Assembly: GCA_020048985.1 (NCBI GenBank)
Contig: JAIFLR010000057.1
Coordinates: forward strand, 1-32,252
Source of the DNA: Halobacteriovorax sp.
GTDB lineage: Bacteria; Bdellovibrionota; Bacteriovoracia; Bacteriovoracales; Bacteriovoracaceae
DNA: 32,252 nucleotides
Direction: 5' to 3'
The notes beneath the pieces are model-generated. The model saw only the letters and a program-made list of their open reading frames with translations, was not told where the DNA came from and did not search any database. Numbering within the stretch: position 1 is the first letter of the stretch; every line of letters starts with the position of its first letter. Both the position numbers and the translations under genes were made by a program. Positions 26,682 through 32,252 of this stretch are shown here, in pieces.

Positions 26682-26980
26682 GGGCCAGTAACGAACACGA
26701 TCGGAAAGATTTTGGTCCAGAGTTTGGAATCGACTATGCGCGATTCGCCGATAGTCCTAATCCTTCTGTAGATGGGAAAATATTTGAGCACATCGAAAAT
26801 AGACTCTTTACTCATTTTGCAGAAGATTTTAATCAGATTGAAATAATCGTTCGAAATGGATTTGTGATCGTAAAGGGACAAGTCAAAGATGAGGTCACTA
26901 GGAAATTAATTGCTGAGGATGTCTGGCGAGTTGAGGGAGTGAAAGAAGTCATTAATCAACTGTCTCTTCAATCAAGCTGA
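26669..26980 (+). CDS. BON-domain protein
   Basis: The 103-residue frame has one BON domain at about residues 38-100, from KIFEHIENRLFTHFAEDFNQ to VWRVEGVKEVINQL, with the central conserved stretch NGFVIVKGQVKDEVTRKL. BON domains bind lipids or membranes and occur in OsmY- and Kbp-type proteins. There is no signal peptide on this frame. The ATG has only a weak AGG upstream and lies in the end of the preceding frame, so it depends on coupling, reinitiation or a frame change. It overlaps the opposite-strand GNAT-DTW gene by 13 nt at the 3' ends. The domain is well supported, the gene structure less so. Confidence 0.65.
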   Translation: MWWVRASNEHDRKDFGPEFGIDYARFADSPNPSVDGKIFEHIENRLFTHFAEDFNQIEIIVRNGFVIVKGQVKDEVTRKLIAEDVWRVEGVKEVINQLSLQSS

Positions 26981-28116
26981 CCTCTTCCTTTCAATGTTGC
27001 TTCCAGTTTTAATTGATAAAATGCCATTAATTCACTTCTTACTGCTTCACCCTCAATGATTCCTAGTGCGTGTGCAATGGCTTCGAGTGTCGCCATACCG
27101 GCTTCAGTGGTTTCCACGCGCATATGGAGGTCAGCAGTATTAGGAGTGCTAATCTTGACTCGAGGAATGTCTTTTAGCTCGTGATGGCGGTAATGCACCT
27201 TACTGGCCTGGCGCCAGTTTCCATCAGGAACGATAAGTTGAATAGGAAGGGAGCTCTCCGAAACAACTTGTTCATTAAGTTCAATGGCATTGTCTGCTGG
27301 ATAAAATAAAAAAGTTCTATAAGCAGGGGAGAGTAAATCGCTGAGATCAAGGGCCGTGTGGTCTTCCCCGCGGATACGCATCTCGCTGTTGGTAAGTGCA
27401 TTTAATGCGAGTCTACCAGTATTTGTTGTTCGCTTGAGTTCCTTGGCATGAATAATTAATGAAATTTTCGTGGCCAGAGTTAGCTTTGGAGTGTGGGCGC
27501 AAATACAGCGGTCTTTATGCAGAAAGCAGCTCTGACAGGGGTCCTGAGGTTTTCTTTTTCTCTTCTTAGAGAATTTTTTCCAATTTTCTTTAGTGAGTTC
27601 CCAGTACTGTGCATGAGTTAAATTAGGATCCGCATATTTCGCAGGTCGAATATCAATTAATTTTGCACCAGTTTTTTCTTTCACTCGATGTGAGCGGGTA
27701 TTTTCCAGAGCATTGGCGAAGATTAAAGATTTTAGATCAAGAGTATGAAAAGCAAAATCCATAATAGGATTCACGGCTTCAGTCATGATGCCCTTTCCCC
27801 AATGCTGCTGACTCAGCCAGAAGCCTCGATTTTCGGGGATCCCAGGATGGAAGAGTTCCACTGCACCAATTAATTCGGTCGGATTCGATTTAAGAAAAAT
27901 GCCCCAATTCCAGCGAGTTTTACCCTGATGTGGAAGTACAACGTTTTTTATAAAAAACTCGGCCCCATCTTCTGGATAAGGCCAGGGCACACGGGCAGAC
28001 AGGAACTTGATTACTTCATAATGAGCAAAGTGTTTTTGGTAAGAAGTGGCATCTGAGAGTTGAACTCCACGCAAAATAAGACGAGGGGTTTCAAAAGTAG
28101 GGATAGTCTCGAACAT
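26968..28116 (-). CDS. GNAT acetyltransferase fused to a DTW-domain protein
   Basis: I set the start at the ATG at 28116 (382 residues), which has AGGATACTGGATT before it; an ATG at 28152 is possible. Residues 1-170 are a RimJ/RimL-type GNAT: PRLILRGVQLSDA, then WGKGIMTEAVNPIMDFAF (acetyl-CoA loop) and NALENTRSHRVKEKTGAKL. Residues 190-382 are a DTW domain: the zinc site CQSCFLHKDRCIC (Cys194, 197, 204, 206) and the core VPDGNWRQASKVHYR at 297-310. DTW enzymes (TapT/YfiP) place an aminocarboxypropyl group from SAM on tRNA uridine 47. The core reads DGNW where most have D-G-T-W, a variant worth noting. The fusion is uncommon to my knowledge. Confidence 0.82.
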   Translation of the reverse strand: MFETIPTFETPRLILRGVQLSDATSYQKHFAHYEVIKFLSARVPWPYPEDGAEFFIKNVVLPHQGKTRWNWGIFLKSNPTELIGAVELFHPGIPENRGFWLSQQHWGKGIMTEAVNPIMDFAFHTLDLKSLIFANALENTRSHRVKEKTGAKLIDIRPAKYADPNLTHAQYWELTKENWKKFSKKRKRKPQDPCQSCFLHKDRCICAHTPKLTLATKISLIIHAKELKRTTNTGRLALNALTNSEMRIRGEDHTALDLSDLLSPAYRTFLFYPADNAIELNEQVVSESSLPIQLIVPDGNWRQASKVHYRHHELKDIPRVKISTPNTADLHMRVETTEAGMATLEAIAHALGIIEGEAVRSELMAFYQLKLEATLKGRGQLD

Positions 28117-28202
28117 AATCCAGTATCCTATTATAAGATTGTCTACAATCATAGAATTCTCTTAGAATAGGGTTATAAAATTAAGTTATAGAAGGTTTCA
28201 AA

Positions 28203-29516
28203 TTGAATGATTTTAAAGGCAGTTGGGAAAAAGACATTCTCATCACCCAACAGGAAGAAAATCCGGTTTTTACGGAAGCGAAAGTTTTCCTGGCCTTGAA
28301 ACTTGCCATTACCTCTGAGAGCTATCTTCAGGCTAATTTTTTGAAATTAACCAGCGACAAGAATATCGACCTGACCCACTTTCGGAATAAGGGGCTATTG
28401 CTAAGTCGCTCTGCTGATATTCTCCAGGCGCAATCTCCCCAAGAGCTTTGCTCGCTACTTAAACAGATACTAAATGTAGAGAAAATTGGAATTTATGCCA
28501 AATGTCTTTTTGCTTTCTTTGAGCACTCCATCTTTGACATAGGATTATTCATTGAGCAAAAACTGGGCTCATCGTTTAAAGTCCCCGGCAGCAATCTTGA
28601 TTTAGATATTTTCTTTGGTGACTATTCGCGCTCATTTGGTGGAATTCATCGAGACGGGGCCAACCTGACGTTCGTCTACTCGAATAAGCAAATGCACTTT
28701 TGGGAGTTTGATGTTTTGGAAGAAGAGGCCAATAAACTTTCAAAGGGAACAAATGTCGGGAGCGCAAAAAGTAGTGGCTCATTTTTCTTCCCTGAGGAGC
28801 AGCAGGACGCCTTGTTCAAACGAATCGAAAAAGATGCACTAGTGTTGAATTTAACCAAAGGAGATTTGATTTACTGGCCCACGCACAAATGGCATGTGGC
28901 GATTAATAAATCAAATGAAGTCAATTTAACCTTGAACATTGCTATGTACAAGTCTGATAAAAAGCAAGTGATTGACTCCCTCCTGTCTGGTCTTTCGCAA
29001 ATTGATCACTATCCTTTTTTTGACGTGGATGCTTTTTTAGATCCAGAATCCAGAGAAGTATTTGCCGAAGATCAGTTTACTCTTCTCGTTTCTAGTGTCA
29101 GTCAAATGAAAGCAGATTTTGTAAAAACAAGAAGTCTCATTCTAGGTAAGCATTTAAGTTCTTTTGGGATTGAGCCCCAGGCCCTAACACTATATCGTCT
29201 TGTGCGTGGAAATGTGCCGCTTGAAAGCCTCGAAAGCCTTAAGGTCTTGAGACCCGCTTTGTTTAAAGTCTTTTATACCGTCGAGGATGAGACAGTCGTA
29301 AAATGTTATTTTTTCGGTGATAGCATTAATCTAATCTACCACCCATCAGTCATTAAATTGATCAATTTTTGTAATGATAAAACTCTGTTTCGCTTGCAGG
29401 ACTTGCTAGATCATAACAATGAACCCGACAATAAAGTCTTACGTCGCAATATTCATCATTTTTTTCGGTTTCTGGCCCTGAGTCCTGGTACAAAGACCAT
29501 CAGTGAATCTTTTTAA
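28203..29516 (+). CDS. JmjC/cupin-like 2-oxoglutarate oxygenase-like protein
   Basis: The start appears to be the TTG at 28203, with AGAAGG 7 nt upstream; no good in-frame ATG exists. The 437-residue protein has a cupin core with GGIHRDGANLTFVYSNKQMH, where His149-x-Asp151 fits the HxD iron motif, and GDLIYWPTHKWHVA, where His231 (or His228) would be the third ligand. This resembles the JmjC/ROXA-type group, some of which hydroxylate ribosomal proteins. The C-terminal third (from about 330) is helical, perhaps a winged-helix module as in ROXA proteins. The substrate is unknown. It diverges from the GNAT-DTW gene. Confidence 0.6.
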   Translation: MNDFKGSWEKDILITQQEENPVFTEAKVFLALKLAITSESYLQANFLKLTSDKNIDLTHFRNKGLLLSRSADILQAQSPQELCSLLKQILNVEKIGIYAKCLFAFFEHSIFDIGLFIEQKLGSSFKVPGSNLDLDIFFGDYSRSFGGIHRDGANLTFVYSNKQMHFWEFDVLEEEANKLSKGTNVGSAKSSGSFFFPEEQQDALFKRIEKDALVLNLTKGDLIYWPTHKWHVAINKSNEVNLTLNIAMYKSDKKQVIDSLLSGLSQIDHYPFFDVDAFLDPESREVFAEDQFTLLVSSVSQMKADFVKTRSLILGKHLSSFGIEPQALTLYRLVRGNVPLESLESLKVLRPALFKVFYTVEDETVVKCYFFGDSINLIYHPSVIKLINFCNDKTLFRLQDLLDHNNEPDNKVLRRNIHHFFRFLALSPGTKTISESF

Positions 29517-29916
29517 AGACACAATAAATAGAGTCTTGCTTGGTGCCACGGGGTCTCAAGGGTAAAATGTTTCTTTGTGTCTTCTTCATATTTCTCTATG
29601 CTCGAAATTTCATCAGTTATGCTGGTATTGATAAAATTGATAAAAAGAAAGGATTGTAGACAAGCATGTACCTTTTTTTACCAATACCTCATACAAGGTA
29701 ACGAATCTGTTACCTCCAAGATAAGGGGTTATTAATTCAATGACAATTGCTTAAAGCGATGCACTGTATGCTATTTATCGTCTTTATGAATAGGCGTTTA
29801 ATGATACCTTATACACATGGGGAGTAGCTCACTCAATTAGAGTTTTCAAGTCGTCATCACGGTTTCGACCCGATTTGAATGTAAAGAGCAAGACCATAAA
29901 TCTACATGGAGGATTT
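29517..29916. other. gene-free, repeat-rich stretch
   Basis: No convincing ORF. It holds a perfect inverted repeat GGTAAC/GTTACC (29697-29714), two near copies of ATACCTYATACA (about 29685 and 29802), an ATTGATAAA pair, a copy of ATGACAATTGCT at 29739 that recurs at 30132, and a tRNA-like segment at 29819-29877. Confidence 0.5.
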
Positions 29917-30069
29917 ATGTCTAATTTACTGGTTCTGGTTTTTGCTACATTTCTAATGTCCTGCTCGTCCTTTGAAGGTAGGCGTTTGGGAGAGATCTCA
30001 TCTCCAGGTTACCAATATGGAAAACAAATGGATGAAAAATCGTTGAGATCAGGATTCATGGAGCGATAA
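29917..30069 (+). CDS. very small lipoprotein
   Basis: The ATG follows TGGAGGATTT, a strong site. The 50-residue product has a lipoprotein signal MSNLLVLVFATFLMSC with the lipobox at LMSC (Cys16), and a 35-residue polar mature part (SSFEGRRLGEISSPGYQYGK). This resembles small entericidin- or osmotic-stress-type lipoproteins in size only. The stop codon is the first TAA of a tandem heptanucleotide array. The function is unknown; it may be stress-related because the HPF-like gene follows, but this is only context. Confidence 0.6.
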   Translation: MSNLLVLVFATFLMSCSSFEGRRLGEISSPGYQYGKQMDEKSLRSGFMER

Positions 30070-30101
30070 TCAATAATCAATAATCAATAATCAATAATTA
30101 A
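30067..30101 (+). repeat. tandem TAATCAA heptanucleotide array
   Basis: Four exact TAATCAA units plus a fifth, TAATTAA, start exactly at the lipoprotein stop codon and run 35 nt. The unit is seven bases long, so indels would shift frame, but here it is non-coding. Confidence 0.92.
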
Positions 30102-30382
30102 TGGATAAATGATCATCATCTTTATTATTATATGACAATTGCTAAGACTCAAGGTACGGCCTTGAAAAAAACTTATGGCTTCAAATCGCATGGCAATGAT
30201 TCCAGCGAAAAGAAAAATCGCTAATCCTGTTGCAGCTGAACTGATGAAAAGCTCCATCCCTTAAAATTGGTTGTATCGAATAAAACGAATCTAAAGATAG
30301 TCTTTATCCATTTTTTTGAAATTGAAAAATCTAATACAATTTGAACATAGCTTCTGCAATATTGTAGAACACGGAGGGCATT
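30070..30382. other. gene-poor leader upstream of the HPF-like gene
   Basis: It contains most of the heptanucleotide array, a second copy of ATGACAATTGCT at 30132 (which opens a 30-codon frame to 30224 without a good ribosome site), a CAAGG-TACGG-CCTTG hairpin followed by A's, and a possible -10 box at 30335. Confidence 0.4.
30335..30340 (+). promoter_or_regulatory. possible -10 box for the hpf-like operon
   Basis: TACAAT lies 43 nt before the ATG; the -35 side is only a T-rich tract. The match is weak. Confidence 0.3.
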
Positions 30383-30736
30383 ATGTTGAAAATCGTGTTT
30401 AAAAACTTGGAACCATCTCAGCTTGCAAGAGAAATTGTGAAGGATAGGATTGAGCCTATTGTCGAGAAGTTTCCTTCCCTTGCTGAGCATAAGGTGACTC
30501 TCACTTTGGAGATGGAAAATTCACCAAAACAGGCAGGTCCTGACCTCTTCACAGTTAGTTCGATGGTTACTGGTAAAAACTTTAAGGATTTAAGGATAAA
30601 AAAATCTTCACAAAACCTTTATCTTGCAACGGCTGATCTTGCAGATGGACTCAACGAACTTTTAAGTCGAGAAAGTGACCGTCTCTTCAAGAAAAAACGT
30701 AAACCACAAATTATTGAAGGAGAACTTTATGAGTAA
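30383..30736 (+). CDS. short HPF/RaiA-like ribosome hibernation factor
   Basis: The 117-residue product follows a CGGAGGGC site. It has the RaiA/HPF beta-alpha layout: MLKIVFKNLEPSQLAREIVK at the start, then HKVTLTLEMENSPKQAGPD, LFTVSSMVTG and NLYLATADLADGLNELLSRE, where the last helix matches the Y-x-A-x-x-x-A-x-x-x-L pattern. The basic patch FKKKRKPQ is near the end. Members bind the 30S A/P-site region in stationary phase and silence ribosomes. Length matches short HPF/YfiA, with no dimerisation tail. It overlaps the following baeRF-like gene by 8 nt, so the two are translated together. Confidence 0.75.
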   Translation: MLKIVFKNLEPSQLAREIVKDRIEPIVEKFPSLAEHKVTLTLEMENSPKQAGPDLFTVSSMVTGKNFKDLRIKKSSQNLYLATADLADGLNELLSRESDRLFKKKRKPQIIEGELYE

Positions 30737-31757
30737 TATTTATCACGATCATTTAGAAAAATTAAGAAATATCAAGACTCATTCGCGTCCAGCAGTGTCG
30801 CTTTACGTTCCTCTCAAATGGAATGATTATGTACCAAGCAAAACTTTTTCTACCTTGATTAAGGCAGCAGATGGGCTCATGGTTAAGGGTGGACATTCTA
30901 AGTTAGAGATCATGACTCCAGACTGGGATCGATGGATAAAGCAGGGTACTGTCACTCTCGCAATTTTTCATCACAATGGGATCACTAACATGATTCCTCT
31001 TCCTACGAGGATGGAGCCGAGAGTTGTTGTCGCGAATAGCTTCCATATAAAACCAATTGTGACTGCATCGAATGAATACGTTGACGCCCTTTTGTTGCAT
31101 TTTAATGAAAGAGGAGCGTGCCTATATAGAGTCAACGCAGTGGAAGAAACATTGGTTGATAGTTATCTACCTTCTAAGATTTTGCCAAAAAATGACTGGC
31201 CATCTAGACTAGATAGGCAGTCACTTAGAAGTTTTTTGGAATTTCTCCAGCAAGAAGTTTGTGGGTCAATCCAAAATACTACAAAAATATTAGGAGTTAC
31301 TGGAGCATCGTTTAATGAACTTCAATCAGAGTCTTTTTGGAGAAAGGTTCAACTACCCGTTGCCTTCTATGATGACTCATTTCGATTAGCTTTGCCCCAG
31401 AACGCCTTTTCGATCATGAGATTTCGTTTGGCGCAGATAGTGAATGAAAGACATGCAGATTCAGTTATGAGAGCTCTTAGCGGTGGAGTTGCATCTAAAG
31501 AACACGTTTCTGTAAGTTCTTTAGCAGCTAAGATTCTTAAAAAAGAAATTAAACAACTTTGTGTTTCATTGGATTGCATGTTCTTTGGTGAGATTGACCC
31601 AAAAGCTGGGAATGTGAAAGTAAATAAGTTTCAACTTAATGCAAATGACGATGACCTTTTGGATGATCTAGTGGAGTTGGCAATTGCGAACGGGGTTCAG
31701 GTAAGTGTTGTACCGAAAAAATATTTACCGAATGGTAGAAGCTTTGTGGCATCATAA
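30729..31757 (+). CDS. bacterial eRF1/Pelota-like (baeRF/Balon-type) protein
   Basis: The start is the ATG at 30729, with GAAGGAGAACTTT upstream inside the end of the HPF-like gene; this gives 342 residues. The N-terminal domain begins HSRPAVSLYVPLKWNDYVPS, matching the V-S-[IL]-Y-x-P opening of the bacterial archaeo-eukaryotic release-factor family; TVTLAIFHHNGITNMIPLP and YVDALLLHFNERGACLYRVN follow, the usual central elements. The middle and C-terminal parts are consistent with the eRF1 domain 2/3 layout. No GGQ tripeptide is present, so release of peptides by a GGQ mechanism is unlikely. The Balon protein of Psychrobacter, a member of this group, enters the A site of idle ribosomes with EF-Tu. 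The pairing with an HPF-like gene supports a similar role here. Confidence 0.7.
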   Translation: MSNIYHDHLEKLRNIKTHSRPAVSLYVPLKWNDYVPSKTFSTLIKAADGLMVKGGHSKLEIMTPDWDRWIKQGTVTLAIFHHNGITNMIPLPTRMEPRVVVANSFHIKPIVTASNEYVDALLLHFNERGACLYRVNAVEETLVDSYLPSKILPKNDWPSRLDRQSLRSFLEFLQQEVCGSIQNTTKILGVTGASFNELQSESFWRKVQLPVAFYDDSFRLALPQNAFSIMRFRLAQIVNERHADSVMRALSGGVASKEHVSVSSLAAKILKKEIKQLCVSLDCMFFGEIDPKAGNVKVNKFQLNANDDDLLDDLVELAIANGVQVSVVPKKYLPNGRSFVAS

Positions 31758-32093
31758 ATTGAGAGAAATGACACAATTATTGTTTTTTTCACTTTAGGGA
31801 TTGTGGATTCTTGAAATCATTGCGAGTTTAGTACCGCATTGAGCTTAAGGATTTAAGGGCACATTTTTAAGAGAACCTAATGTTTGATGAATACATTTTT
31901 TATCTTTAAATTAGTTCGTTGAGATCGACTTGTTTTCAAATGCCAATAGCTTTCAAAATCCTAGCTGGCTGAACAAAAATGCAAATTTTGTATACATTAT
32001 TATCGAGTACCTTTGGGGTGCTCTTTTTTATGATGCCACATCAAACTATTTACTTCTGCTGAACCTCTCAGATCCCAAACTTACTAAAATGTA
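31758..32093. other. gene-free stretch with a terminator
   Basis: No ORF of weight. A weak hairpin plus T7 (about 31773-31789) follows the baeRF-like gene, and a strong terminator lies at 32005-32029. The stretch between could be a 3' UTR or hold a small RNA; nothing else is seen. Confidence 0.4.
32005..32029 (+). terminator. Rho-independent terminator
   Basis: GAGTACC/GGTGCTC stem (one G-T pair), loop TTTGG, then six T's. It is 247 nt beyond the baeRF-like stop. Confidence 0.85.
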
Positions 32094-32252
32094 TTAAGAA
32101 GTTTTGAAAAACTCGATTAAGGCCAGATATCTATGTAGGTTTGAAAGTGGCGGGAGAGGGCCCGGTCGAACCCCTTTAATAAGAATTCGTAAATGAAAAT
32201 GTTTCTGATAAAAAGGAGCATCGGAGATTTGAACTCCACGCAAAATGAGACA
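32094..32252 (-). pseudogene. truncated second copy of the GNAT N-terminus, continuing past the window edge
   Basis: On the minus strand the last bases read LILRGVQISDAPFYQKHFH, against LILRGVQLSDATSYQKHF in the GNAT-DTW protein. At DNA level 32218-32251 matches 28049-28082 at 31 of 34 positions. After about 20 codons the similarity breaks down and the frame stops at 32096, about 52 codons from the edge. A whole GNAT needs about 165, so this is a remnant; its start lies outside the window. A tRNA-Ser-like fragment sits within it at 32148-32175. Confidence 0.65.

Follow-up and report, generated by a model that had tools for sequence, protein, structure and literature searches.

Organization of the locus

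The window considered here, a stretch of 32,252 nucleotides, corresponds to one contig (C117) of a Halobacteriovorax sp. genome assembly of 3.25 Mb in 138 contigs. Toward its end lies a pair of genes for which the first-pass annotation had proposed an HPF/RaiA-type gene followed by an eRF1/Pelota-like gene without GGQ, the two overlapping by 8 nt. Both open reading frames and the overlap, which reads ATGAGTAA, are indeed present, and the locus as a whole comprises the following features:

29917-30069, forward strand: tiny lipoprotein gene, 50 aa, with a lipobox-like ...FLMSC read by eye (sequence and homologues)
30067-30101, forward strand: short heptamer repeat, about AATAATC four to five times, at the lipoprotein stop codon (by eye)
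30102-30258, forward strand: collapsed remnant of a NhaR-like LysR-type regulator gene (tblastn, nucleotide blocks)
30281-30314, forward strand: conserved promoter-region box, TAAAACGAATCTA..GATAGTCTTTATCCATTTT (alignment of nine upstream regions, genome scan)
30352-30369, forward strand: possible 7-bp hairpin just before the Shine-Dalgarno site of the HPF gene (weak covariation, five sequences)
30373-30378, forward strand: Shine-Dalgarno site GGAGGG of the HPF gene (read from the sequence)
30383-30736, forward strand: short HPF/RaiA-type gene, 117 aa (PF02482, AF2 model, Foldseek match to RaiA 8rd8_D)
30729-31757, forward strand: Balon-like (baeRF clade) gene, 342 aa from its ATG, without GGQ (NCBIfam, profile, AF2 model, Foldseek)

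ARAGORN found no tRNA in the window, and comparison with plasmid and phage collections returned no match. A search of positions 28000-32252 against Rfam produced a single row, SNORA2 at an E-value of 0.81, which was rejected as a chance match. Separately, a single open reading frame on the reverse strand (26968-28152) encodes a fusion protein in which a GNAT acetyltransferase domain is joined to a DTW domain; a stand-alone DTW protein of 206 aa is found at locus L060 (1418-2038). The end of the contig (32094-32252, reverse strand) resembles the start of the GNAT-DTW gene (28027-28082) over 56 nt at 84% identity, the two lying 4169 nt apart, and is apparently a degraded partial duplicate of that gene.

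The HPF/RaiA-type protein

The HPF/RaiA-type identity proposed for the first gene is borne out by profile and by fold. Firstly, the protein scores 26.0 bits against PF02482 in a Pfam scan, above the gathering cut-off of 23.7. Secondly, its AF2 model (pLDDT 82.8, from a 7-row alignment) displays the beta-alpha-beta-beta-beta-alpha order of the HPF fold, and a Foldseek search with this model returned 26 rows with E ≤ 0.001, all of them identified as HPF/RaiA/pY-type by entry title or by the name of the chain, with the RaiA solved together with Balon (8rd8_D) at rank 4. Single-sequence phmmer against the PDB gave chance matches only. The C-terminal dimerisation domain of long HPF is absent, the protein stopping at residue 117 with no second Pfam domain above cut-off. 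While the protein resembles short HPF/RaiA proteins (Psychrobacter urativorans RaiA, 8rd8_D; plastid pY/PSRP1) in fold, size and a PF02482 score above cut-off, it differs from the known short members in failing the TIGR00741 equivalog (18.9 bits in an NCBIfam scan, cut-off 40.9) and in carrying an ENSPxQAGPD-like segment.

The Balon-like protein

The product of the second gene is matched by NF052287, the NCBIfam model for Balon, with an E-value of 5.4e-12 and 45.9 bits against an equivalog cut-off of 330, and is on its sequence assessed as a distant relative of Balon that falls below the equivalog. At E ≤ 0.01 the same model matches every member of two alignments of related proteins (14/14 in A5, 13/13 in A4). 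The Pfam models baeRF_family3, 6, 7, 8 and 11 do not match the window protein itself, although at E ≤ 0.1 family 3 matches five and family 7 three of the 13 members of A4; its sole Pfam match, a sub-threshold one to RHH_5, was rejected. Single-sequence phmmer found nothing for this protein in the PDB, and it was profiles that solved the problem: the 14-row profile A5, which includes the window protein, matches 8rd8_B at an E-value of 1.5e-24. Chain B of 8rd8, to which the depositors gave the molecule name of a chemotaxis protein, is treated here as Balon on the strength of the entry titles (8rd8, 8rdv, 8rdw).

The AF2 model (pLDDT 88.0, pTM 0.82, from a 14-row alignment) shows a three-domain fold of the aeRF1 type. 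Foldseek returned 39 PDB rows with E ≤ 0.001, a few titles of which (for example ranks 11, 15, 17 and 24) do not identify the chain; the best matches are ribosome-bound Balon (8rdw, 8rdv and 8rd8, E about 1e-15), Balon and Msmeg1130 make up the first five rows, and aRF1/eRF1, Rv2629 (rank 10) and Pelota/Dom34 follow. The global TM-score to Balon is about 0.6 and the rmsd 7-8 Å, values for which a different domain orientation may account. Two C-domain strands are predicted in the model at residues 286-289 and 296-299, in a region that aligns with Balon without gaps, and may correspond to the C-domain beta-hairpin that Balon has on its EF-Tu side. The assignment in the first-pass annotation was open to challenge on two counts, profile and fold, and on both the outcome agrees with it: an eRF1/baeRF-type profile match exists, and the predicted structure has the three-domain eRF1 layout, with Balon, rather than Pelota, as its closest counterpart.

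Sequence motifs complete this picture. Neither GGQ nor the stop-codon motif NIKS occurs in the window protein or in any row of alignments A3 (13 rows), A4 (13) and A5 (14); an unconserved NIKT is found at residues 14-17 of the window protein, in the first helix. Balon is described with an HP motif at the decoding centre; the window protein has no HP dipeptide, and at residues 55-57, where five of the 13 rows of A3 have HP, it reads GHS. At the place of GGQ, the loop facing the peptidyl-transferase centre (PTC) lacks the 23-residue insertion of 8rd8_B and is, in the profile alignment, about 19 residues shorter on balance; P148 and W157 within it are present in all 13 rows of A3, the window protein included. 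Balon is also described with a long lasso loop at A2602 and a bL27 trap, to which this loop may be related.

Overlap, selection and correlated divergence

The motif AAGGAG lies at 30717-30722, within the 3' end of the HPF gene and ahead of the second start codon. Nine modules in which an HPF gene precedes a Balon-like gene were compared, and the overlap measures 8 nt in six, 7 nt in one and 4 nt in one; in G088 its length depends on the start codon chosen, being 31 nt with the earliest possible start and 7 nt with an internal ATG. Since the same arrangement recurs in nine modules, the overlap has not arisen by chance. Both open reading frames are under purifying selection, with dN/dS of 0.049-0.17 for HPF in six of six comparisons and of 0.059-0.147 for the Balon-like gene in five of six, the sixth not being computable and dS being near saturation in several comparisons. 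The identities of the HPF and Balon partners correlate closely (r = 0.94, 36 pairs, Mantel-type permutation p 1e-4), a result that is supportive only, because the sequences are related and not independent.

Together these data suggest an operon in which one mRNA would carry the HPF gene and the Balon-like gene, and in which production of the Balon-like protein would be translationally coupled to that of HPF through the 8-nt overlap.

Distribution within the genome, genus and phylum

A second HPF-Balon module, also with an 8-nt overlap, is present on contig C102 of the same genome, its proteins being 46% (Balon) and 56% (HPF) identical to those of the window. Contig C126 carries a third Balon-like gene; the 9 kb examined there contain no HPF match, and in the tree this gene sits on a long branch of its own, a placement flagged by the tree program for long-branch effects. 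The window HPF gene is also distinct from a further HPF gene of this genome, which adjoins a sigma-54 gene on C95, and a fourth, weak HPF-like gene (PF02482, 24.9 bits) occurs on C120 with no Balon-like gene in the surrounding 3.2 kb.

Among 26 genomes of the genus, several of them incomplete, seven contain the HPF-then-Balon module, nine modules in total, and the top nine matches of an order-wide Balon search each overlap an HPF gene. The reverse order is found elsewhere in the phylum, with a Balon gene followed by an HPF gene at a 4-nt overlap in L055, L068 and L072, and with HPF likewise downstream at L131, L133, L136 and L137. At E ≤ 1e-12, a search of 129 genomes with the HPF profile A6 gave 15 rows from 13 of them, five of these rows being the sequences from which A6 was built; when positions were compared by eye, 11 of the 15 adjoin a Balon match, and three of the remaining four (G060, G073 and G025) lie within 1.2 kb of a NhaR-like regulator. 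Relatives with named records (13 loci) are mostly Bacteriovorax/Bacteriovoracaceae, other Bdellovibrionota and 'Proteobacteria' MAGs, with two from Acidobacteriota.

Several further genes were observed around these modules. Unpaired Balon-like genes occur near a paired module in G083 (C76:12937-15143, locus L043), a genome with five Balon-like matches in all, and in G088 (C115:29045-30055, locus L044). Immediately upstream of the second HPF-Balon module stands a TMEM175-type potassium channel gene (L041:4475-5023). A putative lipoprotein of 155-160 aa, without a Pfam match and 26-54% identical between copies, is encoded near Balon genes in three genomes (L049:5672-6139, L043:3448-3930, L044:3278-3757), and a 172-aa protein, 74-97% identical between copies, is encoded near a module or the regulator (L060:6151-6669, L043:1805-2323, L041:2902-3420), its L060 and L041 copies having no match in Pfam or NCBIfam.

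The tiny lipoprotein

The claim that a tiny lipoprotein gene precedes the pair has held up: the open reading frame is real, and homologues stand beside the modules of relatives, in all seven of the seven genomes. In seven modules the lipoprotein gene lies upstream of the LysR-type regulator (LTTR) gene or of HPF, and in G087 and G088 it lies tail-to-tail with the Balon gene. When the 50-aa sequence alone was searched against the 26 genomes of the genus, nine genomes yielded 13 rows at E ≤ 0.01; 10 of these rows are no more than about 3.6 kb away from a Balon gene, and three fall on contigs without a Balon match (G103:C51, G084:C418 and G095:C1, the last with internal stops). At E ≤ 0.01, an order-wide profile search matched 80 of 129 genomes; most of these are short signal-peptide matches, and the result is left uncounted. 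The count from the profile A8 was likewise set aside in favour of the single-sequence search, because the sequences used to build the profile account for 11 of its 13 strong rows.

A decayed regulator gene in the leader

The region ahead of the HPF gene had been described as a long leader. This is accurate in part: positions 30102-30258 are what is left of a LysR-type regulator gene, as shown by tblastn matches of the intact L060 LTTR to the region at E-values of 1.8e-5 and 0.002. The pieces of the remnant correspond to residues 5-19, 223-233 and 232-294 of a 295-aa protein of a relative, and the idea that the whole leader might act as a regulatory RNA was dropped once they had been found. The hairpin before the Shine-Dalgarno site has two compensatory pairs in five sequences and is a hint only, since 65 of 500 shuffles do equally well. 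A sigma-70 promoter scan was uninformative (8 found, 8.0 expected).

In the window, the conserved box lies between -102 and -69 relative to the HPF start codon. Its part TTTAT[N][CT]ATTTT is found in six of nine modules, with related letters in G087 and G088 and not in G103. The first part of the box fits the LTTR motif T-N11-A and may be a candidate site for the regulator; the predicted site of E. coli NhaR, TCgaAAAAatCtA, follows T-N11-A as well, according to a passage of PMC6307784. A 19-nt pattern, drawn from the window and its relatives, gave 38 genome-wide matches with at most two mismatches as compared with 16 for a reversed control, so that the pattern alone is weak evidence; the window site has no mismatch by construction, one other site has one, and the C102 promoter site has two.

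An intact 295-aa LysR-type regulator is encoded directly upstream of HPF in G094, in G083 (two modules) and in G093, and no regulator gene occupies that place in the modules of G103, G088 and G087. The G094 protein carries the Pfam domains HTH_1 and LysR_substrate, and its best NCBIfam model is NhaR (142 bits, below the cut-off of 219). The genome of the window retains an intact copy on C102, which shares 77% identity with the G094 regulator and is located 2.3 kb upstream of the HPF gene of the second module.

The association of this regulator with Balon genes was surveyed in a phylum set of 368 genomes. A search with the Balon profile A4 (E ≤ 1e-10) gave 129 rows, reduced to 124 genes in 100 genomes once fragments had been joined; a search with the regulator profile A7 (E ≤ 1e-60) matched 179 genomes, and the counts use the 205 distinct rows listed, which come from 170 genomes. 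Among the matches listed, the regulator lies within 3 kb of at least 47 of the 124 Balon genes, in at least 42 of the 100 genomes of Bdellovibrionota, where genome size predicts about 0.34 of 124 by chance, the relatedness of the genomes inflating the number of association events. Orientations among the 47 are regulator-then-Balon in 28, divergent in 18 and Balon-then-regulator in one. Once the five contigs that supplied the regulators for A7 are excluded, the counts become at least 41 of 117 genes and at least 38 of 99 genomes, and outside the order of the window the regulator is near at least 25 of 59 Balon genes among the matches listed. Speaking against the association, 77 of the 124 Balon genes have no nearby regulator among the matches listed, including the C126 type and 17 of the 19 Balon genes of G132-G155.

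These observations suggest that a NhaR-like LTTR would control the module, its gene having decayed at the window locus while an undamaged copy persists near the second module. For E. coli NhaR, binding to the promoters of seven rrn operons is reported (PMC10157491). The words LysR and NhaR do not occur in the main text of Helena-Bueno et al. (2024) or of Burroughs and Aravind (2019), and a literature search found no paper joining LysR to the Balon hibernation factor.

Relationship to known hibernation factors

The pairing described here has precedents. Passages of Burroughs and Aravind (2019; PMC6514570) report HPF in the neighbourhood of several baeRF families and propose a non-catalytic insertion into the A site, and the parts of Helena-Bueno et al. 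(2024; PMC10901736) drawn upon here describe the pairing of RaiA with Balon and the binding of Balon together with RaiA in one structural class. Given that the HPF-baeRF link was published in 2019 and RaiA-Balon in 2024, what is found here is, at its core, one more example, in divergent form, of a pairing already in the literature rather than a new one.

Like Balon of Psychrobacter urativorans (AOC03_06830) and its RaiA, the window pair combines a three-domain aeRF1 fold without GGQ with a neighbouring HPF/RaiA gene, and, as in the 38% of analysed species that passages of PMC10901736 give as having several Balon copies per genome, several are present here. The differences are equally clear, the window protein being 15-16% identical to Balon in structural alignment, with a shorter loop and no HP dipeptide, and the locus having the HPF gene first, an 8-nt overlap, and a LysR-type regulator and tiny lipoprotein as neighbours. 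Mycobacterial Balon (Msmeg1130/Rv2629) is alike in fold, with 8v9j, 8v9l and 8v9k in the top 10 structural matches; its model NF052288 nevertheless matches only two of 14 A5 members at E ≤ 0.01, and not the window protein. In the papers searched, no counterpart was found to the second, diverged copy of the module, the shorter PTC-facing loop with a Balon score far below cut-off, the NhaR-like regulator remnant and association, or the recurrent tiny lipoprotein.

Function of the module

The best explanation of the locus, to which we assign a probability of roughly 0.8, is a two-gene ribosome-hibernation module whose HPF/RaiA-like and Balon-like factors would jointly inactivate and protect idle ribosomes. 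This reading is based upon the Balon profile and structure matches, the HPF profile and fold, the nine overlapping modules, the purifying selection and correlated divergence of the partners, the second module in this genome and the published Balon-RaiA mechanism; the Balon score of 45.9 against 330 bits, the unmatched Pfam baeRF families, the empty single-sequence search of the PDB, the failure of TIGR00741, the short loop, the missing HP and the TM-score of about 0.6 with its rmsd of 7-8 Å count against it. By analogy, the HPF/RaiA-like protein would be expected in the mRNA/tRNA channel of the 30S subunit, and the Balon-like protein in the A site, spanning the decoding centre to the PTC without hydrolysis of peptidyl-tRNA and possibly in contact with EF-Tu; joint binding of the two to idle ribosomes would then result in their inactivation and protection.

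An unlikely alternative is ribosome rescue, in which the aeRF1-like protein would act as a non-catalytic Dom34/Pelota on stalled ribosomes while HPF captures the ribosomes set free. A Dom34-like non-catalytic role of baeRFs is discussed in passages of Burroughs and Aravind (2019), and Pelota/Dom34 entries are among the structural matches, but the best Pelota-titled entry (E 7.0e-8) trails Balon (E 1.4e-15) by about seven orders of magnitude and storage is better suited to an HPF partner. It is very unlikely that the pair serves instead to protect the A site and PTC against toxins or antibiotics that target ribosomes and has no role in starvation: no toxin or resistance family was detected among the six neighbouring proteins scanned, even though effector attacks are proposed as a driver in portions of Burroughs and Aravind (2019), and multidrug-resistance genes are named elsewhere among the neighbours of Balon (in part of PMC10901736). 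That two unrelated genes overlap here by chance is scarcely credible, for while short overlaps are common in bacteria, all nine top order-wide Balon matches are overlapped by HPF, two such pairs occur in one genome, and the same families are paired in reverse order elsewhere in the phylum.

A tentative extension of the hibernation reading, possible rather than probable, is that the module belongs to a self-contained unit of the Bdellovibrionota in which a NhaR-like LysR regulator might sense an ionic or energy signal and activate the Balon-HPF pair, together, in this genus, with the tiny lipoprotein. In the present genome, one surviving regulator might then act in trans on the promoters of both copies of the pair and so give rise to two kinds of stored ribosome. 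For Bacillus and mycobacteria, the Balon paper (PMC10901736) cites induction in response to stress or hypoxia, and a non-replicative attack phase of Bdellovibrio is described in PMC3627812; a literature search on Bdellovibrio and hibernation found nothing on the topic.

Taken together, the data would place hibernation of the Balon type, tied to a fixed HPF partner, in a lineage whose best-studied relative, Bdellovibrio, cycles between hunters that do not replicate and cells that grow. The analysis also names a candidate regulator, whose adjacency to at least 47 of the 124 Balon genes of the phylum opens their control to testing, and the shorter PTC-facing loop of the window protein raises the question of whether the long loop of Balon is needed for hibernation.
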